Shown piece by piece: positions 5,208-52,524 of a stretch of DNA of 64,000 nt (positions within the stretch are counted from its first letter, which is position 1; every line of letters begins with the position of its first letter). The position numbers and the translations under genes were made by a program. Under the pieces are notes generated by a model. That model saw nothing but the letters and a program-made list of their open reading frames with translations. It made no database searches and was not told the origin of the DNA. Source of the stretch: Chloroflexota bacterium (GTDB taxonomy: Bacteria; Chloroflexota; Anaerolineae; Anaerolineales; VGOW01); contig JACRBQ010000004.1 in assembly GCA_016213135.1 (NCBI GenBank), forward strand, positions 1 to 64,000, given 5' to 3'.

Positions 5208-5441
5208 ATGCGCCTCATTCGCGCTTCTGAGATCGGGGAATACTTGTACTGCCGCCGCGCGTGGTGGCTGAGGCAGGTGCTGGGGCTGGCCTCGGTGAAC
5301 GTGCGCGAAATGGCGGCGGGCACGGCCGCCCACGCGGCCCACGGGCGGCGGGTGGGGATGGCGACGCTGATGCGCTGGGCGGCAATCGCGCTGGTGGCGC
5401 TGGCGATGGCCTGGGTGTTGCTCAACTGGGGCGGAAAATGA
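5208..5441 (+). CDS. N-terminal half of a membrane-anchored Cas4-like nuclease
   Basis: 77 residues from ATG 5208 (GGGAG ribosome site at 5194). The first 48 residues match the N terminus of Cas4/RecB-like (DUF83) nucleases: [18 protein letters not shown], with the first iron-sulfur Cys, then the GxxxH motif in [10 protein letters not shown] single transmembrane helix (about residues 52-73) follows and the ORF stops. The nuclease core (D, ExK) and the other three Cys lie in the next ORF, whose ATG overlaps this TGA. Positive residues before the helix put the N-terminal part in the cytoplasm. No cas genes or CRISPR repeats are nearby. See the findings for the split. Confidence 0.75.
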
Positions 5442-5950
5442 TCGCCGTCGTTTTCATCCTCCTCGCCATTGTGCTGTGGGTGCTGTCGCAGCGCACGCAG
5501 CAGGCCGCCGGGTTGCCCACGGGCGACGTGGTGTACACGGACGCCGGTGGATGGGGCCGTTTGCGGAGGCCGCTCGTGTCGCGCCGATTGCAGCTCACCG
5601 GCAAGCCCGATTATCTGGTGCGCGACGGCGCGACAATCATTCCGGTGGAAGTGAAAACGGGCCGCGCCCCGGCGGGCAGGCCGTACGACTCGCACGTGTA
5701 TCAGCTTGCGGCGTATTGCGCGCTGGTGACCGAGGCCTATGGTCGCCGCCCCACTCACGGTCTCATCAAATACAACGATCAAACAGTGGCCGTGGACTAC
5801 ACGCCCGAACTGGAAGCCGATTTGCTGAAAGTGCTGGAAGCCATGCGCGCCGACGAAACAGCGGAGCATGTGGAGCGCTCGCACCAATCGGCGGCGCGCT
5901 GTCGAGGCTGCGGCCTGCGCGAGGAATGCGACGAGAGGATAATCGGCTAG
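5438..5950 (+). CDS. C-terminal half of a membrane-anchored Cas4-like nuclease (PD-(D/E)XK)
   Basis: 170 residues from ATG 5438, overlapping the previous stop (ATGA). A transmembrane helix at residues 2-17 is followed by a PD-(D/E)XK core: GKPDYLV (Asp), PVEVKTG (Glu-x-Lys), and the RecB motif [14 protein letters not shown]. The C terminus [10 protein letters not shown] has the CxxC-x5-C spacing of the Cas4 iron-sulfur site. Together with the Cys in the upstream ORF this makes the four-Cys set of Cas4. It would cut or trim single-stranded DNA at the inner face of the membrane. The function outside CRISPR is unknown. Its stop codon lies in a long palindrome. Confidence 0.8.
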
Positions 5951-41364: not shown

Positions 41365-41667
41365 ATGACTGTTTTGAATCGCATTGCCTACTTTCAGAAT
41401 CGCCGCGACGAAGTTCCCAATCAGGAACTTGCCGGCGAGCTGGCGGCGACCAAAAACAAAAAGGGCATCAAAGAGATCGCCGTCAATCTTTGGAGCGACA
41501 ACCGCAACGTGCAGAGCAATTGCCTGAAGGTGCTCTACGAGATTGGGTATCTCGAGCCCGCGCTCATCGCCGATTACGCCGACGATTTTTTGCGGCTGCT
41601 GCAGAACCGCAACAACCGGCTGGTATGGGGCAGCAATTGGCGGCGCTGGCCGCAATTGCCGAATTGA
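41365..41667 (+). pseudogene. HEAT-repeat-like protein, N-terminal fragment (frameshifted)
   Basis: 100 residues in this frame. Sense sequence runs to NRNNRLVWG (about nt 41630), after which the frame gives an unrelated tail and a stop at 41667. The protein continues in the +1 frame (next entry). One additional G in the GGGG run at 41627-41630 would join them into a protein of about 210 residues made of helical pairs (EIAVNLWSDNRNVQSNCLKVLYEIG). It is either a real frameshift or a homopolymer error. Confidence 0.7.
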
Positions 41668-41996
41668 AAGCCAAAGAGTTGTTTCCCCGCATGGCCGAGA
41701 TAGAGCAGGCGATGGAAAACGGCTCGGTGATTACCGTGGATAACGGGGTGCTGGCGCTGGCGCGCATTGCCTCAACGGATGCCAAACGCCGAAAAGCGAT
41801 CTTCCCTTACTTGCTGAAGCACCTCGCCACCTGCCGCCTCAAGGAAGTGCCCCAGCACGCCGAAAAGACTCTGGTGGCAGTCAATGCCGCCAACAAGCAG
41901 GAGTTCATTGCGGCGCTGGAGGCGCGGCTGGGCGGCATGACCGGTTCACAAGCAGCGCGAGCGAGGCGGGTGATCAAAGCCGCTTCTATCCGTTAG
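41625..41996 (+). pseudogene. HEAT-repeat-like protein, C-terminal fragment (frameshifted)
   Basis: Continuation of the previous gene in another frame: QQLAALAAIAELKAKELFPRM, DNGVLALARIASTDAKRRKAI and HAEKTLVAVNAANKQEFIAAL are typical HEAT-like helices. The only local start is ATG 41625, which has no ribosome site. A hairpin terminator for the convergent carD gene follows the stop. Confidence 0.7.
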
Positions 41997-44171: not shown

Positions 44172-44888
44172 TCAGTAGCTCCACTTCTCTTGTCGAACCG
44201 GCAGACGATTGAGCACCTGGCGATGAAACTGCCACTGGGGCATGAAGCGGTCCATCAGTGCGACGAAGCGGGGGCTGTGGGTTGGCTCCAGCAAATGAAC
44301 CAGTTCGTGAACAACCACATATTCGAGGCACTCCGCCGGCTTCTTGGCCAGCTCGGTGTTGAGGCGAATCGTGCGTGCCGTGTGGTTGCAGCTCCCCCAC
44401 CGGGTCTTCATCCGTTGCACGAAGAACCGCTCCACCCTCACGCCCAACAGCAGCTGCCAGCGCAAAAGCAATAGAGGCACAGCCTCCTTCAACTGCTCCC
44501 GATACCATTCCTCTACAATGGCCTGCCTCCTGTTCTCATGTGTTCGCGGCCGCACCCGTAGAAGCAAACGGCTGTGCTTAAGCTCGATAGCCGGCGGCTC
44601 ATCGCTCTCGGAGAGCGTGAGCAAATAGCGCCTGCCCCAAACGAAGTGGCTTTCCCGCTCCACGTATTCTCGAGGCGTTTCGCGTTCCTGTTCCCGCAGC
44701 TTCATCTGCTGCTTTTTGATCCAATCCAGCTTCGAAATGGCGAAGGCGCGGATGGTGTCCATGCTCATGCGCTTCGGGGCAGAGATGCGCACCCGGCCCG
44801 TCGGGGGATAGACACTGAGATGGACGTTCTTGATGTCCTTCAAGACCACGTCCACCGCGATGTCACCCAATTTGATCTGCGACGCCAT
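44172..44888 (-). CDS. YgjP-like metallopeptidase (DUF45), attached to the type I R-M operon
   Basis: 238 residues. Zinc site HELVH in YVVVHELVHLLEPTHSPRF with the third ligand His, and upstream RWGSC (typical of YgjP/SprT-like proteins). The last gene of the hsdM-hsdS-hsdR block; its ATG overlaps the hsdR stop. YgjP-like genes are often found next to type I R-M systems; their substrate is unknown. It is probably cytoplasmic. Confidence 0.88.
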   Translation of the reverse strand: MASQIKLGDIAVDVVLKDIKNVHLSVYPPTGRVRISAPKRMSMDTIRAFAISKLDWIKKQQMKLREQERETPREYVERESHFVWGRRYLLTLSESDEPPAIELKHSRLLLRVRPRTHENRRQAIVEEWYREQLKEAVPLLLLRWQLLLGVRVERFFVQRMKTRWGSCNHTARTIRLNTELAKKPAECLEYVVVHELVHLLEPTHSPRFVALMDRFMPQWQFHRQVLNRLPVRQEKWSY

Positions 44889-47800
44889 CAGTACTCGCCC
44901 CGCGCCTTGATGATGAGAAAGAGTCGTTCCACCTCGATCTCATCTTTCAGAATCCCATACAGCGCCGCTTTGATGACTTGCTCGCGGGCCTGGACACCGC
45001 GCCATCCGTCCGGCCGCACCCGCTTCACCGCGGCGTCGATCTTGACGGCCAGATCCAGCGCCTGGTCGCCGGAGACCGCGTACTCGCCTGGCACTTCGGC
45101 CACGCGATCCGTCCGCGTAGGTGTCCCGCCGTCCCGCTTCAGGTTGTTGTAAAGTGCCCGGAGCGCCGGATTGCTCTGCAACTGCTCGGGCGTATCCTCC
45201 GCCAGCCCTGCCTCTACGCTCCGCGCCAAGTCCGCGATGCGCTTCAGGTATGCCTCGTACTCGATGGCCCTGGCCTTCCGGGCGGTGATGATCTCGTCGA
45301 GCAGGGTCGACATCTTCTCGTAGTAGGCGGGGTCGCTCAGGTGCTCCTTGATGATCTTGCGGCGGACGTTGTTTTCTATGGTCTCCGCGATGGCGTTCCT
45401 GTTGCCCTTCAAGCCACCGAGCTGCGACGTGATGGCAGTCGCGATGCCCGTCTTCACGATTAACTCCAGCAAGCCCATATTGTCGAAGGGCGATATCGTC
45501 CTCGGCTCGTCGGCCTCGATGTAGGTGTCGATGAGGTGCCGCATGTCGGCCTCGTAGGCTTTCAAGTCCAGGGTTTCGCCGCTGGCCTTGCGGATGATCT
45601 CGCGCACGTTCAGGTAATGCTCAAGTTGCTTCTTAAGGCGGCCGACATCGGCCGCGCTATAACCGGCAGGCTCCAATTCGTCGGCGATATTGGCATAGAC
45701 GCGCACCAGGGCCACAGTCGCCTTGTAGAGCGCCGCCCGCTGCGGCTCCCGTTCCTGAAGGTCTGCCGGAATCTCCGTATTGCCGCAGAAATGGTGGATG
45801 TGCTCCAACTCGCCTTTGGGCGGTTCCACCGGCTCGCACAGCAGAGCGAGTGTTTCAATGGCAGTATCGAGACGCACGCGACCCTTTTGCAGGCGGTTCT
45901 GCATCAACACTTCGGGTTCAGCGCCAGGGGCACTGTGATCCAGTTCGGAGGTGTAGACCGCGATGGCGCTCTCAACTTTGGGGAACAAGTTCTTATAGTC
46001 CACGATGTAGCCGAAGTCCTTGTCTTCGCCGTCCAGGCGGTTGACGCGGCAGATGGCCTGGAACAGGCCGTGGTCCTTCATGGATTTGTCAATGTAGAGA
46101 TAGGTGCAAGGGGGCGCGTCGAAGCCGGTCAACAGCTTATCCACCACCACCAGCAGCTTCATGTTCGCCGGCTCCTTGGTGAACAGCGCCTTCGCCCAGT
46201 CCTCGTAGGTCTCGGTCTGGGTCATGCCCGGCTTGGCGTCGACGTCCTTCAGCAGCTCGGTGTAGGTGTTGTAGATGAACTGCTTGTCGGTCTCGGTGTT
46301 GGCGCCCGTTTCCTCCAGCGTCACGTCCTTCGCCAGCGGGTTGTAGGACGTCACCACGGCGCACTTGCCCTTGAACGGGGTCTTCTGGAAGAGCGCGAAG
46401 TACTTGCACGCCTCGTAGATGCTGGAGGCCACCAGAATGGCATTGCCGCGTTCGCTGGACAGGCGCGGCTTCACGCTGAAATCGAAGACGATGTCACTCA
46501 CCACCCGTTCCATACGCGAACGGGAGCTGAGCACGATCTGCATCGTGCCCCATTGCTTCTTCAGCTCGTCCCTTTGCCAGTCGTTCAGCCCCTTCGTCTT
46601 GGCTTCGAACCAGGCGTCGATCTTGTCCTCCGAGCCGAGCCGCTGGTCGATGTCCCGCGCTTCATAGACGAGGTCGAGCACGACCCCGTCATTGACGCCC
46701 TCGCTGAATTTGTAGGTGTGGATGTAGCCGCCGAACACTTCCAGGCTGGTCTGCGCGTCCTGTTTGAGCAAGGGGGTGCCGGTGAAGCCGATAAATACCG
46801 CATTGGGCATCATCGCCTTCATCACGCGGTGCAGCTTGCCGCTTTGCGTGCGGTGGCACTCGTCCACGAACACGAACACCTCGCCCACGGTGGGGCTGCG
46901 TTGGGCTTCCAACTCCTTGATGAAAGCGTCGAAGTCGTCCACGTCCCTACGCCCGAACTTGTGCACCAGCGAGCAGAGCAGGCGCGGCCTGGCTTGGCCG
47001 AGCTGGCTCATTAGGTCACGGCCGCTGCTGGTGCGCTTGATGGGTTGGCCCGCCTCGGTGAAGACGTGCTCGATCTGTTTGTCCAGCTCGTCGCGGTCAG
47101 TGATGATGGCGACTCGGGCGTTGGGGTTGTTCTCCAGGATCCACTTGGCCAGCAGCACCATCACGATGCTTTTGCCGCTCCCCTGCGTGTGCCAGATGAT
47201 GCCGCCCTTCTTCTCTCGCGCGTGCGCTTGCGCGGCCTTGACGCCGAAGTACTGGTGCGCCCGCGGCAGCTTCTTCACGCCGCCGTCGAAGAGCACGAAG
47301 TAGTGCATCAGCTCGATCAGCCGCTCCTTGCGGCACATCTTGAGCAGGTACTTGTCCATCTTGAAGCGGCTGTCGTCGGCTTCGTCCTCCTTCCACTTGA
47401 GGAAGTACTTTTCCTCCGTTTTTATCGCGCCGTATTGCAGTCCTTCGGAGTCGTTGCCAGCGAAAACGATCTGAACTGTGGAGAAGAACCACTCGTTGAA
47501 TTCTTTGAGCTGGTTGGAGAGCAACTGCCGGATGCCTTCACCGATGCTCACAATGCTCCTCTTCAGCTCCACCACGCCCAAGGCAATGCCGTTCACATAC
47601 AGCACGATATCGGGCCGCCGCTCATGGTTCCCCTTGAGCGTTACCTCCTCTGCGATGGCAAAGTCGTTCTTCTCCGGCTCCCGCCAGTTGATGAGGTGGA
47701 CCGTCTCCGTCACCTTGCCCGCCTCGGTCTTCACGGGCACGCCGTAGCGCAGCAGGTTGTAGACGGCCTGGTTGTTGCCGTAGAGCGTGCGGCTGTGGTT

Positions 47801-48013
47801 GTCTGCCTCGGTGCGGAGCTTGTGCAGGGCCGCGCTAATCTGCGCCGGGGTGTACCCGCTTTTCGCCAGCCAGGCCGAAAGCAGACCCTCCTCGATGTTG
47901 CTGTTGCCGTCGCGGTCGGTCCAATCGCCCAGGTAGCGGTAATGCAATTCATCGCGGAACAGGGCGATGACCCGATCTTGCGTGGCGCGTTCAGGTTGGC
48001 CAACAGTGCTCAT
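44888..48013 (-). CDS. hsdR: Type I restriction enzyme, R subunit (HsdR)
   Basis: 1041 residues. The N-terminal nuclease has the PD-(D/E)XK residues in RRPDIVLYVNGIALGVVELKR. The motor has Walker A TQGSGKS (about residue 284), the DECH box in VFVDECHRTQ, and later SF2 motifs (FIGFTGTPL; LLVVVDKLLTGFDAPPCTYLY). The C-terminal 200 residues form the helical region that contacts HsdM. It cuts DNA lacking the cognate methylation after ATP-driven translocation. A RAYT gene and repeats separate it from hsdS, so expression from the hsdMS promoter may be affected. Confidence 0.95.
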   Translation of the reverse strand: MSTVGQPERATQDRVIALFRDELHYRYLGDWTDRDGNSNIEEGLLSAWLAKSGYTPAQISAALHKLRTEADNHSRTLYGNNQAVYNLLRYGVPVKTEAGKVTETVHLINWREPEKNDFAIAEEVTLKGNHERRPDIVLYVNGIALGVVELKRSIVSIGEGIRQLLSNQLKEFNEWFFSTVQIVFAGNDSEGLQYGAIKTEEKYFLKWKEDEADDSRFKMDKYLLKMCRKERLIELMHYFVLFDGGVKKLPRAHQYFGVKAAQAHAREKKGGIIWHTQGSGKSIVMVLLAKWILENNPNARVAIITDRDELDKQIEHVFTEAGQPIKRTSSGRDLMSQLGQARPRLLCSLVHKFGRRDVDDFDAFIKELEAQRSPTVGEVFVFVDECHRTQSGKLHRVMKAMMPNAVFIGFTGTPLLKQDAQTSLEVFGGYIHTYKFSEGVNDGVVLDLVYEARDIDQRLGSEDKIDAWFEAKTKGLNDWQRDELKKQWGTMQIVLSSRSRMERVVSDIVFDFSVKPRLSSERGNAILVASSIYEACKYFALFQKTPFKGKCAVVTSYNPLAKDVTLEETGANTETDKQFIYNTYTELLKDVDAKPGMTQTETYEDWAKALFTKEPANMKLLVVVDKLLTGFDAPPCTYLYIDKSMKDHGLFQAICRVNRLDGEDKDFGYIVDYKNLFPKVESAIAVYTSELDHSAPGAEPEVLMQNRLQKGRVRLDTAIETLALLCEPVEPPKGELEHIHHFCGNTEIPADLQEREPQRAALYKATVALVRVYANIADELEPAGYSAADVGRLKKQLEHYLNVREIIRKASGETLDLKAYEADMRHLIDTYIEADEPRTISPFDNMGLLELIVKTGIATAITSQLGGLKGNRNAIAETIENNVRRKIIKEHLSDPAYYEKMSTLLDEIITARKARAIEYEAYLKRIADLARSVEAGLAEDTPEQLQSNPALRALYNNLKRDGGTPTRTDRVAEVPGEYAVSGDQALDLAVKIDAAVKRVRPDGWRGVQAREQVIKAALYGILKDEIEVERLFLIIKARGEY

Positions 48014-48022
48014 GGCGTCTGC

Positions 48023-48616
48023 CTATTTTGATTGGGCGGCGTAGAAATCATCTTTTTCCCAATTCTGCGGGTTGGACAGGATGTATTGCTGAATACGGTA
48101 ATGTTCTTCGGCGTTACGAATTACGCGGTCATGATACCGCGCCTGCCATTCAAAGGGAATACCATTCTGGCGTGCGAATTTGGTTACACCGATTTTGTAT
48201 CCGCGTATGATTGATGCGAGGTTTTGCGATTGGGGTCCAAAACGGTTGCGCGGTAGAGACGCAAAATATTGCGTCTCTTCACCAGATGCAATATTTTGCG
48301 TCCCCACAGGTACCGTTGCGCCATCGGGTTTGTTGATCGTCAAAACCCCATGCATATGGTTTGGCATGACCATACGTTCGCCCAATTCGACAAATGGAAA
48401 ATGGGCGGGGATTTCGTCCCAACAATCCTGCGCGGACTGGCCCAGGGGGGACAAAATCATTTTTCCGCCCGCGATCCTGCCAAAATCGTGGGCGCGGTTC
48501 GCAACACAGAGGGTGACGAAATAGGCGGCGTTGCTGGAATAATCCCATGCCGCCCAGCGCGCGCTGGCGATGCGGTATTTGTTTTTGAATTTGCCCGCGT
48601 TATTTTCGGTGTCCAT
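48023..48616 (-). mobile_element. REP-associated tyrosine transposase (RAYT, Y1/HUH)
   Basis: 197 residues, the length usual for RAYTs. The HUH motif is MPNHMHGVL (about residue 85), preceded by AAYFVTLCVANRAHDFG; the C-terminal helix YHDRVIRNAEEHYRIQQYILSNPQNW carries the catalytic Tyr candidates. Y1/HUH enzymes nick single-stranded DNA at REP hairpins. The coding region has two copies of the neighbouring palindrome read in frame (ETQYFASL and VGTQNIAS, at 48253-48278 and 48285-48306), which lie between HUH and Tyr motifs. Three more copies lie just upstream. The gene looks intact. It is located between hsdS and hsdR. Confidence 0.85.
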
Positions 48617-48877
48617 AAATGATCATGCCGATGTTGTATAACCGTCGCCGTAGAGACGCAATATTTTGCGTCTCTACAGGTACCGTTGCGCCCTGTCGTG
48701 TGGCCGCCTACGATATCGGATTTTGAGACGCAAAATATTGCGTCTCTACAGGTGCCGTTGCGCCATCGGGTTTGTTGATCGTCAATGCCCCATGCACATG
48801 GTTTGGCATGACCATGCCGATGTTGTATGACCGTCGCGTAGAGACGCAAAATTTTGCGTCTCTACAGATAACGTACC
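48617..48877. repeat. REP array and partial duplication upstream of the RAYT gene
   Basis: Three palindromes with arms GTAGAGACGCAA and TTGCGTCTCTAC lie at 48651-48678, 48725-48749 (left end short) and 48838-48865. Between them, 48748-48815 is a near copy of 48306-48373 inside the RAYT gene, and two copies of GATGTTGTATRACCGTCGC precede the first and third palindromes. The spacer therefore holds remnants of RAYT duplication and no separate gene. Confidence 0.85.
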
Positions 48878-50128
48878 CTACACCAGCCTGATTTTACCTG
48901 TCAGCAATTCCTGCATCATGCCCTGTTTGATGCTGCGGGCTTTGGCGAGCTTGGCTTCCTGCGCGGCGATCTCGGCGTCCATGTCGGAGAGAATGGCGGC
49001 GATCGCAGTTTGTTCACTGACTGATGGCACTGGCAGAGTGACTCTTGCGATGTTTGCCTTGCTGATTCCCGAAACCTTGGTTCCGACTGCAAAAAATCGA
49101 AACTGATCCTGTACCGCGGTGGTTTGAAAGCAGTAGCGCCGATACCGATGCTCCAGCACGTCGGCCTTGCTCTTGGCAACAATAGTGTGCAGACCCGAGA
49201 TGAATGGAATTCCATCTGGGTTGATGATTACAACATGCCTGCTCGTGCCCTCGACGTCCTCAGAAGCATCAACAAAGACAACGTCGCCGTCGACCAGCAG
49301 CGAGGCGGACGACACTCCTTGTAATGAAATGTTGAGCTTCGGAATGTCCGGGTACTCGGAGCGCACGTCAACAAATGACTTCTTCGACCCGTGAATGTCA
49401 CCATAATGGAGGTAGCAATAGCCTTCAGAAGAGAGCTGGTCTCGCGACGCAGTGAAGCCGCCACTGAAGTCGAACAGGTCACTGAGTGGCTTCACTTCCC
49501 ACTCCCCGCTGAAGCCCGGCAGGCGCTTCTTCCCAGCGAGCAACTCCTGCATCGCGCCTTGCTTGATCTGGCGCTTCTTAACGAGGAGTTGCTCCAAGGT
49601 CTCGATGAGGGCATCCGCATCGCTCAACGCATCGGCGATGGCTTCTTGTTCGACTTTGGAGGGTGGGAGTATTAGAGCTAAACGCCTGAGATTGTCTTGA
49701 TTAATGTTGGTGTTGGCGCTCACAGAACTTGCGCCAATCACCCTTCTTCGAAAGCCTTCCTCATAAAAACAGTGCTGTTTAAAACTATCGGACAGTTTGC
49801 CGTTGTCGCGATATCGAATTAGAAACCCTGAGTACACGGTCCCCGGAAGATCCTTTTCAACTACCGCTGTCAAACCAACGCCAGAAGGCTTAACTGATGT
49901 CTGTTGTTCCACAGCATTCGTAGCAACTAGACCGAGCGCTTCATTGGAAACGATTCGCGATACACCAAAAACATCCATTAGATTCACAAACGGCGAGCCA
50001 TAACCAAAGGACTCACGGTTCTTATTGATTCCGTTCTTGAACTTGCCGAGATCCCCAAGAGGAACAGCATTCCAATCCTCCGGGATCACCCCCACCTCGG
50101 TTTGCTTGTAGCCGGGCCTCACTTCCAT
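48878..50128 (-). CDS. hsdS: Type I restriction enzyme, specificity subunit (HsdS)
   Basis: 416 residues from ATG 50128; the open frame further upstream is a shadow of hsdM. Two target-recognition domains are each followed by the conserved helix: EQEAIADALSDADALIETLEQLL...IKQGAMQELLAGKKRL and EQTAIAAILSDMDAEIAAQEAKL...IKQGMMQELLTGKIRL. This gives a bipartite recognition site. The recognition domains are less GC-rich than the rest of the operon, typical of exchanged TRDs. It overlaps hsdM by 10 nt. Confidence 0.95.
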   Translation of the reverse strand: MEVRPGYKQTEVGVIPEDWNAVPLGDLGKFKNGINKNRESFGYGSPFVNLMDVFGVSRIVSNEALGLVATNAVEQQTSVKPSGVGLTAVVEKDLPGTVYSGFLIRYRDNGKLSDSFKQHCFYEEGFRRRVIGASSVSANTNINQDNLRRLALILPPSKVEQEAIADALSDADALIETLEQLLVKKRQIKQGAMQELLAGKKRLPGFSGEWEVKPLSDLFDFSGGFTASRDQLSSEGYCYLHYGDIHGSKKSFVDVRSEYPDIPKLNISLQGVSSASLLVDGDVVFVDASEDVEGTSRHVVIINPDGIPFISGLHTIVAKSKADVLEHRYRRYCFQTTAVQDQFRFFAVGTKVSGISKANIARVTLPVPSVSEQTAIAAILSDMDAEIAAQEAKLAKARSIKQGMMQELLTGKIRLV

Positions 50129-52524
50129 GAGAACCCCATCTTTGCCAGGTGGAGGTTCACTTTGGCTTCCAGTTCGGCCACGCGACCGACCATCTGCGGC
50201 AGCGGGGTTTCGTAGCGCTCGGCCAGTTCCTTCACGCGCTGGGTGAGCTGCTGGCTCACGCGATCCATCTCGCCGTGGATGGCGGCGTCGAGCGCGGCCA
50301 GCCATTTGTCGTCCACCACCAGCGTCTTGATCTCGGTCTCGGTGAGCTTCGGATACCTGGCGTAGGCCTGGGCGTCGAGCGCCGCCTCGGCCTCCTTGAG
50401 GCGCTTCTTGAAGTCGGCCTCCTCGCCGTTGAGTTTCAGCCAGTCGTTCAGTAGAGACGCAAAATTTTGCGTCTCTGCATCTGGGTCATCGGCAATCTCC
50501 TTCAGCCGGGCGGTGACGCTGGCTTTGTTCACCTTGTCGAAGTCGGCGAATGCCCCCTCCTCGCCGCTGTGTTCTTCTTCCATCTCGGTGAGGCGGGCGG
50601 TGACGCCCTCCAGCTCGGCGGCGAGCTGGTCGATGGCCGCTTGCTCGTTGGCGAAGTAGCGGGCTACGATCAGGGCCTTGGGGATGAGGTCGCAGGTCCA
50701 GCCCTTGTCCTTCTCCTTGCCCTTCTTGTCCTTCTGGATGATGCGTGCCGTCTCAGCCTTCCAGCCGTCGGCGGCGGTCAGGTAGCAGTCGTCCTGCATG
50801 GTCTCGGCCCAGTAGTCCATCAGGTGCTGATAGACGTCGTAGGGGTCGATGAGCGGCCGGCCGGCGTAGTGGGCCAGCAGGCCCTCGGCCAGCGCCGTGA
50901 TGACCTCCTTGGGATGGCAGCCGGCCTTGAGACCCTTGAGAGTTTTCGCGCTCTTCTCACGCCACGCGGCGAAATGGGCGTTCATGCCGGCGATGAAGGC
51001 AGTGAACTCCGGATGCTCGTAGATGGCAGGCTTGAGGGCCGACTTCTCCACGGCGAGATCGACGTAGCCGGGACGGTTTCCCTTGAACAGCGTGTGCCGG
51101 AGCTGCGGGCAGACGTCCCAATAGCGCTGGAGCGCATCGACATCGGCGAGGGGGATGCCGCCCTGCAGGTGGCCCGCAATGTCCTGCCGGTCCTCGGGCG
51201 TCTGGCTGTCGATGTAGCGCGGCAGGTTGAGGTTGAACTCGTTCTTCTCAATCTCCGCGAAAGGGACCATGCGTGAGTATTTCGGAACCTCCAGCCGCCG
51301 GTTGAAGACGTCTACGATCTTGTGGATGTCCTGGTCGCGCAGGCGGTTCTTGGGGCCGTCCTTCATGAAGCCGCCGCTGGCGTCAATCATGAAGATACCC
51401 TTGCGGGCCTGGGCGTCCTCCTTGTCGATGACCACGATGCAGGCGGGGATGCCGGTGCCGTAGAAAAGGTTGGCGGGCAGGCCGATGATGCCTTTGATGT
51501 AGCCCTTACGCACCAGTGCGCGGCGGATGTCGGCCTCGGCGTTGCCGCGAAACAGCACGCCGTGCGGCAGGATGCACGCACCTTTGCCGGTGCTCTTGAG
51601 CGATCGGACGATGTGCAGCAGGTAGGCGTAGTCGCCCTGCCTGGCGGGCGGCGTGCCGAAGGGCTTGAAGCGCTCGTAGGGGTCGTTCAGCGGATCGAGG
51701 CCGGTGCTCCAGCGCTTGTCGGAAAAGGGCGGATTGGCGACGACGTAGTCGAAGGTCTTGAGTGCCTCGCCGTCCTTGAATTTGGGATCGGCCAGCGTGT
51801 TGCCCTGTAAGACGAGCGCCCCGGCGTTGTCGTGCAGGATCATGTTCATCCGCGCCAGGGCGCTCGTGGCGGCATCTTTTTCCTGCCCGTAGAGCGTGAC
51901 GGGGGTGCCGGCCTCGTCGCCCACCTTGAGCAGGAGCGAGCCGGAGCCGCAGGTGGGGTCGTACACGGTGGTAGCGGCATTGGTCTTCGCGCGGCGGATT
52001 CCGCTGATCTGCGCCATGATGCGGCTGACCTCGGCCGGGGTGTAGAACTGCCCCTTGCTCTTGCCACTCTCGGTGGCGAAGTGCCGCATCAGGTATTCGT
52101 AGGCGTCGCCCAGGATGTCGTCGCCCTCGGCGCGGTTCTTCGAGAAGTCGAGGGCCGGGTTCTCGAAGATGGCGATCAGGTTGGTGAGCCGGTCCACCAT
52201 TTCCTTGCCGCTGCCGAGCTTGGCGGGGTCGTTGAAGTCCGGGAAATCCGAGAGCTTGTTGGCTTTGGCCAGCGGGGCGATGATCTTCTTGTTGATCTGG
52301 TCGCCGATGTCGCTCTTGCCCTTGAGGGCGACCATGTCCTTGAAGCCAGCCCCTTTGGGGATGGTGATCGGGGCATAGGCCACACCGGCGTATTTGTCGC
52401 TGACGTACTTGATGAACAGCAGGACGAGGACATAGTCCTTGTACTGACTTGCGTCCATGCCCCCGCGCAGTTCGTCGCAGCCGGCCCAAAGCGTGCTATA
52501 GAGTTCGGATTTCTTGATAGCCAA
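50119..52524 (-). CDS. hsdM: Type I restriction enzyme, methyltransferase subunit (HsdM), with extended C terminus
   Basis: 801 residues, longer than the usual about 500. HsdM_N is at the N terminus (YSTLWAGCDELRGGMDASQYKDYVLVLLFIKY). The N6-adenine methylase core has DPTCGSGSLLLKVG (SAM) and VVANPPFSDKRW (NPPF). The C-terminal about 300 residues are helical and charged, with CDLIPKALIVARYFANEQAAI followed by coiled coil; this is known from some long HsdM types. A REP palindrome lies in frame at 50451-50478, adding about AETQNFASL. It methylates adenine with HsdS. Confidence 0.95.
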   Translation of the reverse strand: MAIKKSELYSTLWAGCDELRGGMDASQYKDYVLVLLFIKYVSDKYAGVAYAPITIPKGAGFKDMVALKGKSDIGDQINKKIIAPLAKANKLSDFPDFNDPAKLGSGKEMVDRLTNLIAIFENPALDFSKNRAEGDDILGDAYEYLMRHFATESGKSKGQFYTPAEVSRIMAQISGIRRAKTNAATTVYDPTCGSGSLLLKVGDEAGTPVTLYGQEKDAATSALARMNMILHDNAGALVLQGNTLADPKFKDGEALKTFDYVVANPPFSDKRWSTGLDPLNDPYERFKPFGTPPARQGDYAYLLHIVRSLKSTGKGACILPHGVLFRGNAEADIRRALVRKGYIKGIIGLPANLFYGTGIPACIVVIDKEDAQARKGIFMIDASGGFMKDGPKNRLRDQDIHKIVDVFNRRLEVPKYSRMVPFAEIEKNEFNLNLPRYIDSQTPEDRQDIAGHLQGGIPLADVDALQRYWDVCPQLRHTLFKGNRPGYVDLAVEKSALKPAIYEHPEFTAFIAGMNAHFAAWREKSAKTLKGLKAGCHPKEVITALAEGLLAHYAGRPLIDPYDVYQHLMDYWAETMQDDCYLTAADGWKAETARIIQKDKKGKEKDKGWTCDLIPKALIVARYFANEQAAIDQLAAELEGVTARLTEMEEEHSGEEGAFADFDKVNKASVTARLKEIADDPDAETQNFASLLNDWLKLNGEEADFKKRLKEAEAALDAQAYARYPKLTETEIKTLVVDDKWLAALDAAIHGEMDRVSQQLTQRVKELAERYETPLPQMVGRVAELEAKVNLHLAKMGFSWK
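50451..50478. repeat. REP palindrome read in frame inside hsdM
   Basis: Arms GTAGAGACGCAA and TTGCGTCTCTGC (one mismatch to the RAYT-associated copies) around AAAT/TT. On the coding strand it gives (A)ETQNFASL inside a coiled-coil part of HsdM. Distance from the RAYT gene is about 1.8 kb. Confidence 0.85.

Follow-up and report, generated by a model that had tools for sequence, protein, structure and literature searches.

A variant of solo-Cas4 in Chloroflexota probably built from two membrane-anchored subunits

Cas4 nucleases and the gene pair of the window

Cas4 has been much studied as a one-chain nuclease of the CRISPR systems. The CAS-Cas4 proteins, seen in the Cas4-Cas1-Cas2 complexes (8d3l, and the Cas4/Cas1 fusion 7mi4), are single chains without a membrane segment, which adjoin Cas1 or are fused to it. 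The solo-Cas4 proteins (COG1468/PF01930), such as SSO0001 and Pcal_0546, are found outside the cas loci; a monophyletic clade of them has been described in many Chloroflexi (Hudaiberdiev 2017; PMC5704561), in a study that discarded short or disrupted sequences and whose text mentions neither transmembrane nor split forms of Cas4. The Fe-S PD-(D/E)XK nucleases EXO5, Dna2, AdnA and AddB have the fold in common with Cas4 and also consist of one chain, Dna2, AdnA and AddB being fused to helicases. A full-text literature search, with subscription papers thinly covered, brought up no Cas4 described as split, membrane-bound or transmembrane, and no biochemistry was found in the literature searched for any member of the family presented here.

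The window, i.e. the whole stretch of 64,000 nucleotides from a Chloroflexota bacterium analysed in this work, contains two genes on the forward strand, ORF1 (77 aa; 5208..5441) and ORF2 (170 aa; 5438..5950), which overlap by the start-stop sequence ATGA (5438..5441), just as the preliminary description had stated. ORF1, the N half, covers the N-terminal helices of Cas4 followed by a C-terminal transmembrane helix (TM1, residues 54-71, 5367..5420; mean KD 2.0), its profile matching in all paired relatives. It carries Cys15 (5250..5252), the first of the four Fe-S cysteines, and His42 of the GxxxH motif (5331..5333), a predicted metal ligand that corresponds to His62 of SSO0001 (PMC4176176). 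ORF2, the C half, begins with its own transmembrane helix (TM2, residues 1-18, 5438..5491; mean KD 2.7) and continues with a PD-(D/E)XK core, in which conservation in the relatives marks Asp58 of GKPDY (5609..5611) and the E-x-K stretch Glu71-Val-Lys73 (5648..5656) as the predicted active site, together with the QxxxY motif Gln89-xxx-Tyr93 (5702..5716) and the remaining three Fe-S cysteines, Cys155, Cys158 and Cys164 (CxxCx5C; 5900..5929).

The equivalents in SSO0001 are Cys32, His62, Asp99, Glu113 and Cys188/191/197 (PMC4176176), the last three having the same spacing as those of ORF2. Judged by these positions, the break falls between the metal-ligand histidine and the aspartate, and the Fe-S site is divided 1+3 over the two ORFs, so the division of the four cysteines that had been proposed for this locus is borne out.

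Concerning the profile searches, ORF2 exceeds the cut-offs of both Cas4 models, PF01930 of Pfam (35.9 bits, cut-off 22.7) and TIGR00372 of NCBIfam (67.6 bits, cut-off 65), and PADLOC, too, assigns the C half to Cas4. ORF1 alone stays below both thresholds, giving a weak but consistent match to the start of the same models (profile positions 2-44). No helicase domain was detected in either ORF by profile search. The earlier assignment of ORF1 to the Cas4 N terminus with a transmembrane helix, and of ORF2 to a transmembrane helix with the PD-(D/E)XK and CxxCx5C residues, can thus be retained.

The pair has in common with solo-Cas4 the predicted fold, the His/Asp/Glu-x-Lys residues, the QxxxY motif, the CxxCx5C cluster with the fourth cysteine and the location away from cas genes; the C half scores as Cas4, there is no adjacency to cas1 or cas2, and the sequences stand apart from CAS-Cas4. 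It differs from solo-Cas4 in being made of two polypeptides, with one transmembrane helix in each and a membrane hairpin between the histidine and the aspartate. The typical Cas4 is a single soluble chain, a property not required for membership; since there are two genes here, each with a transmembrane helix, the pair is regarded as a variant of Cas4 and not as a typical member.

Membrane topology could be evaluated over 140 pairs, in which a transmembrane helix was predicted for all N halves (140/140) and for 98% of the C halves. Counted over the 12 residues flanking each helix, lysines and arginines average 2.2 on the N-terminal and 0.4 on the C-terminal side of TM1, as against 0.1 and 2.9, respectively, for TM2; because of this bias, both soluble parts are placed in the cytoplasm, and the positive-inside argument originally made from one locus holds statistically. 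For the structure, the chain modelled was that of a relative (L002), whose C half is 57% identical to that of the window, with both ORFs read as one frame, the sole stop read as glycine and the alignment containing 28 similar read-through rows. The AlphaFold2 model of this single read-through chain (pLDDT 93.2, pTM 0.87) has the helix of the histidine extending into TM1 (residues 35-82) and TM2 coming back (residues 93-117), i.e. a Cas4 with a helical hairpin, in agreement with the previous proposal that the split sits at the turn of such a hairpin. In VIA-align the best structural matches of this model were the CAS-Cas4 proteins (7mi4, Z 19.4, rmsd 2.8 over 179 residues; 8d3l, Z 18.6); AdnA, EXO5, SSO0001 and Dna2 scored below these two, the values for EXO5, Dna2, AdnA and AddB, Z 10-15, being clearly below Cas4. 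A naturally uninterrupted archaeal homologue with a two-helix hairpin (L282) models alike (pLDDT 91.5, pTM 0.85, Z 20.7 to 7mi4). A Cas4 fold of the split family is supported by the predicted structure of L002, a relative of the window pair.

Conservation of the split in Chloroflexota

Matches to the C half were found in 75 of the 101 related genomes (56 of the 69 good-quality ones), nearly all with open frames without an internal stop, and in 158 of 400 Chloroflexota genomes sampled across the phylum, the weakest matches of both searches including ordinary CRISPR Cas4. About 140 distinct Chloroflexota pairs have the N half as a separate upstream ORF with the break at the same site; closed genomes are among those carrying the split pair, the cultured Anaerolinea thermolimosa and Pelolinea submarina have the pair as well, and none of the relatives examined in the window's order had a one-piece version. 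The residues named above are conserved throughout 141 aligned sequences: Cys15 in 138 of the 138 rows with a letter at that position, H42 in 133, D58 in 136, E71 in 133, K73 in 138, Q89 in 136, Y93 in 133, C155 in 140, C158 in 141 and C164 in 140. With the two-ORF layout repeated in 140 distinct pairs and the residues near-invariant, chance is excluded. The retention of D58, E71 and K73 in 133-138 of the 141 sequences indicates, at the level of the alignment, selection for catalysis in most lineages, including that of the window.

The arrangement of the two halves is, by contrast with the break itself, variable. Over 74 loci, a few of which represent the same genome counted twice, the relative frames are distributed 33/26/15 across the three offsets, and the gap between the halves ranges from -10 to more than 200 nt, with -4 as the commonest value and +3 as the second. 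In several genomes of the family f11 (L137, L139, L059 and others), a HEAT-like gene of ~210 aa separates the N and C halves. A frame-disrupted relative of this gene is also present in the window (~41370-41680), distant from the pair. In 15 of the 15 Chloroflexota genomes without an N half near the C half, a profile search located it elsewhere (E 1e-18 to 1e-28); the halves are far apart in 14-15 genomes, L012 (G480) being counted without a comparison of contigs, and in three of them (G295, G430 and G373) both are on one contig at a distance of 0.2 to 2.8 Mb. The N half was absent by profile search from all 23 well-assembled genomes that have no C half, the search of the 15 genomes serving as the positive control. 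The two halves thus appear to have been gained and lost together with their adjacency dispensable, which is the pattern that subunits of a single complex should show. True single chains with the hairpin in the middle occur in two genomes of the family f41 (L171 and L178; 330 and 353 codons). In the tree of the C domain they fall within the clade of the split forms, L171 at a poorly resolved position there; they look like secondary fusions and suggest two halves acting as one protein.

Two explanations would make the break in the window less than a real division into subunits, and both are judged against the same comparison. Short overlapping ORFs can resemble a broken gene, and true decay does exist among the relatives, as in L181 and in L210, a copy on a plasmid, so that a single real cas4 gene interrupted by an indel, i.e. 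a sequencing error or a pseudogene, had to be considered; yet each half has its own transmembrane helix, start and stop, the one-piece version was not found in the window's order, and the identical break in the ~140 pairs, closed genomes included, rules out sequencing error behind the split and leaves the probability of this explanation negligible. The other, already offered in the preliminary description as an alternative to two proteins assembling in the membrane, is programmed -1 ribosomal frameshifting at GGAAAATGA, by which both ORFs would yield one fused chain. The ATGA overlap with the run of A in the window, the real fusions in the family f41 and some archaeal pairs lacking a standard start codon (see below) speak for it, but the constant offset and conserved slippery site that define such frameshifting are not what is seen in Chloroflexota, where three offsets, spacers of up to 200 nt, intervening genes and sometimes unlinked halves contradict it. 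Obligatory frameshifting is ruled out by the variable frames and by the layouts with a HEAT-like or, on a plasmid, a DUF4326 gene between the halves, and frameshifting at the window pair itself is very improbable. The three frames, the spacers, the intervening genes and the unlinked halves—the latter in 14-15 genomes—lead instead to N and C as separately encoded subunits, which favours the option of assembly in the membrane.

Relatives in archaea and on plasmids and the gene neighbourhood

The N profile matches in 146 of 293 genomes of Thermoplasmatota. At the loci with a short ORF, the C half follows immediately downstream in 18 of 19, the remaining one (L244) being cut by the contig end. At the loci with a long ORF (L263-L282), 19 of 20 encode single chains with transmembrane helices between the histidine and the aspartate, two of them in five proteins, four in twelve and eight in two, the number thus being even in 19 of 19. 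As to the junction of the split archaeal forms (L243-L261, L014), a Shine-Dalgarno-like GAGGTG or GGGGTG was observed in 18 of 19 loci; most have, ~7 nt past it, an ATA overlapping the stop of the N half (ATAG/ATAA), with TTGA at this place in L252. Six of 18 have no ATG, GTG or TTG ahead of TM2 of the C half; to judge from the nucleotide sequence, translation of the C half in these six pairs may begin at a conserved AUA codon or depend on a -1 frameshift.

Split pairs are also present on plasmids of Singulisphaera, Paludisphaera, Bacillus subtilis, Marinobacter, Pseudomonas, Aeromonas, Vibrio and Thioalkalivibrio, spanning three other phyla—Planctomycetota, Bacillota and Gammaproteobacteria. 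In the Thioalkalivibrio plasmid, the two halves are separated by a DUF4326 gene. The gammaproteobacterial plasmid pairs have the same position of the split as the window pair, an N half with the cysteine and histidine of Cas4 and a C half starting with its transmembrane helix; they differ in that the N half has a CFI_box_CTERM domain (NF041770) instead of a simple transmembrane tail, and the annotation treats the two genes as unrelated. Such a CFI-box tail is found in most of these N halves, in one by profile and in the others by annotation or similarity. Among the pairs from planctomycete and gammaproteobacterial plasmids (L205, L206, L209, L211, L212, L214), some are carried by conjugative plasmids (MOBH or MOBF) and some have DNA methyltransferases nearby. 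Viral relatives of the C half were found neither in the phage collection (three queries) nor in IMG/VR (pattern scan), and a viral origin was rejected on this basis. Seen over the sequences compared, the split is kept across the phylum Chloroflexota, in archaea and on plasmids.

Clustering of the neighbours of 157 loci revealed a co-linear cluster in Anaerolineae, usually in the order ssb-translin-N-C-nadK-recN and all on one strand, the counts being 36 for SSB, 22 for DUF3467, 44 for the translin family, 60 for NAD kinase, 55 for a B-box-like membrane protein and 49 for RecN. Many Anaerolineae (L064, L082, L088 and others) have the translin-family gene (PF01997, 27.7 bits; haloacid dehalogenase by the names of the best NCBIfam models) in the stretch from ssb to nadK-recN. 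This company resembles housekeeping and DNA-repair genes, and as gene context it points to DNA repair at least as much as to the processing of incoming DNA that had been put forward at first and stays conjectural. The link remains suggestive, because the ssb-translin-nadK-recN cluster was absent by neighbour clustering at the window pair and in many other lineages, and because translin is kept in genomes without the N-C pair, that of the window's genome being on another contig. The persistence of translin where the pair has been lost weakens the case for the pair being strictly tied in function to translin or RecN. Elsewhere in the window, on the reverse strand, ORFs resembling a type I restriction-modification system were noticed by eye (44172-52524), namely HsdM-like (50119-52524), HsdS-like (48878-50305) and HsdR-like (44888-48013) ones, with an M48-type metalloprotease-like ORF beside them (44172-44888).

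Proposed assembly and possible roles of the pair

Based on the above results, ORF1 and ORF2 very probably encode a solo-Cas4 Fe-S DNA nuclease that is anchored in the membrane and consists of two subunits, one from each gene. The conserved split, the separate genes, the residues, the transmembrane helices, their predicted orientation and the Cas4 fold are supported by the comparisons and the modelling; Fe-S binding, DNA cleavage and a 1:1 heterodimer would follow by analogy, from the Cas4 biochemistry in PMC3466216 and PMC4176176. Subunit N would supply the first cysteine of the cluster and the metal-ligand histidine, and subunit C the D/E-x-K core, the QxxxY motif and the other three cysteines. 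Each would be inserted by a single span, N-in/C-out for subunit N and N-out/C-in for subunit C, and their helices would pair as a hairpin at the site where the single-chain kin have two, four or eight transmembrane helices, so that a single Cas4 active site and a single Fe-S cluster would be completed only where N and C come together, on the cytoplasmic side of the membrane. Where the start-stop overlap is present, as in some members of the family, it would couple the synthesis of N and C, and the complex might then trim or nick DNA ends beneath the membrane. A role in repair or recombination, through the processing of DNA ends at the membrane, is proposed tentatively, as a possibility somewhat short of even chances, the plasmid forms acting likewise on transferred DNA.

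Several other roles have to be weighed against this one. The pair could act in trans, trimming prespacers for the genome's own Cas1-Cas2, given that it is present in 31 of 32 Cas1-bearing relatives versus 43 of 69 Cas1-lacking ones (Fisher p 0.0002) and that the solo-Cas4 of P. furiosus has been reported to process the non-PAM end (cited in PMC12538437). The 43 genomes with the pair but without Cas1 argue against it, the pair needing no CRISPR, and the positive association may simply track the lineage or the completeness of the assemblies and MAGs. Moreover, in the C-domain tree the CRISPR Cas4 proteins of these genomes form, with an archaeal Cas4 (L015), a starred group of their own (99/94) apart from the C half. 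The window's genome has CRISPR-Cas with two Cas1 genes, both on other contigs, and an ordinary one-piece Cas4 of 204 aa beside one of them; the earlier statement that the window has no cas gene therefore stands and the pair is stand-alone as a locus, but the genome as such does have CRISPR-Cas and a one-piece Cas4. Adaptation in trans is thus considered quite improbable.

Degradation of incoming phage or plasmid DNA by a defence nuclease of the membrane would fit the membrane location, the homologous pairs on conjugative plasmids, some of them near methyltransferases, and the solo-Cas4 of DPANN archaea near restriction-modification genes (PMC5704561). It fits less well with a pair that is near-universal in the order to which the window belongs and in neighbouring ones (the 56 of 69 good genomes) and usually co-linear with housekeeping genes in Anaerolineae; in PADLOC the only models matched are those of Cas4 and DruK, none having been found that describes the pair as a system, and defence is judged unlikely. 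An Fe-S scaffold of the membrane, for which the cluster and DNA binding would matter and cleavage would not, recalls the C halves of L186, L187 and L190, which have lost D/E-x-K and kept the transmembrane helix and the cysteines, as well as the several members of the family f41 that have lost D or E (partial loss; also L173-L178). To go by these sequences, some members may act without cutting, and catalysis is perhaps not the sole function; the near-invariance of D58, E71 and K73 elsewhere makes a pure scaffold improbable for the family.

For the nuclease of two subunits favoured here, the consequences concern above all the solo-Cas4 lineage, which in these organisms is membrane-bound and encoded by two genes in most of the members sampled. 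Its split, two-part membrane form looks like an overlooked one. The pair is hard to recognise, the small half being usually named a hypothetical protein and the large one a short Cas4-like or PD-(D/E)XK protein, and, if the assignment is correct, many Cas4 genes regarded as fragmentary in the databases would be real subunits. More speculatively, and with doubts that prevail at present, the pairs may represent a widespread class of membrane-assembled split nucleases, in which the transmembrane module guides or senses DNA and couples cleavage to DNA passage or to membrane-tethered repair. The conserved break between the metal-ligand histidine and the aspartate is a naturally occurring case of a split active site, and the membrane would, if the above holds true, become a testable site for the action of solo-Cas4 in repair or DNA transfer.
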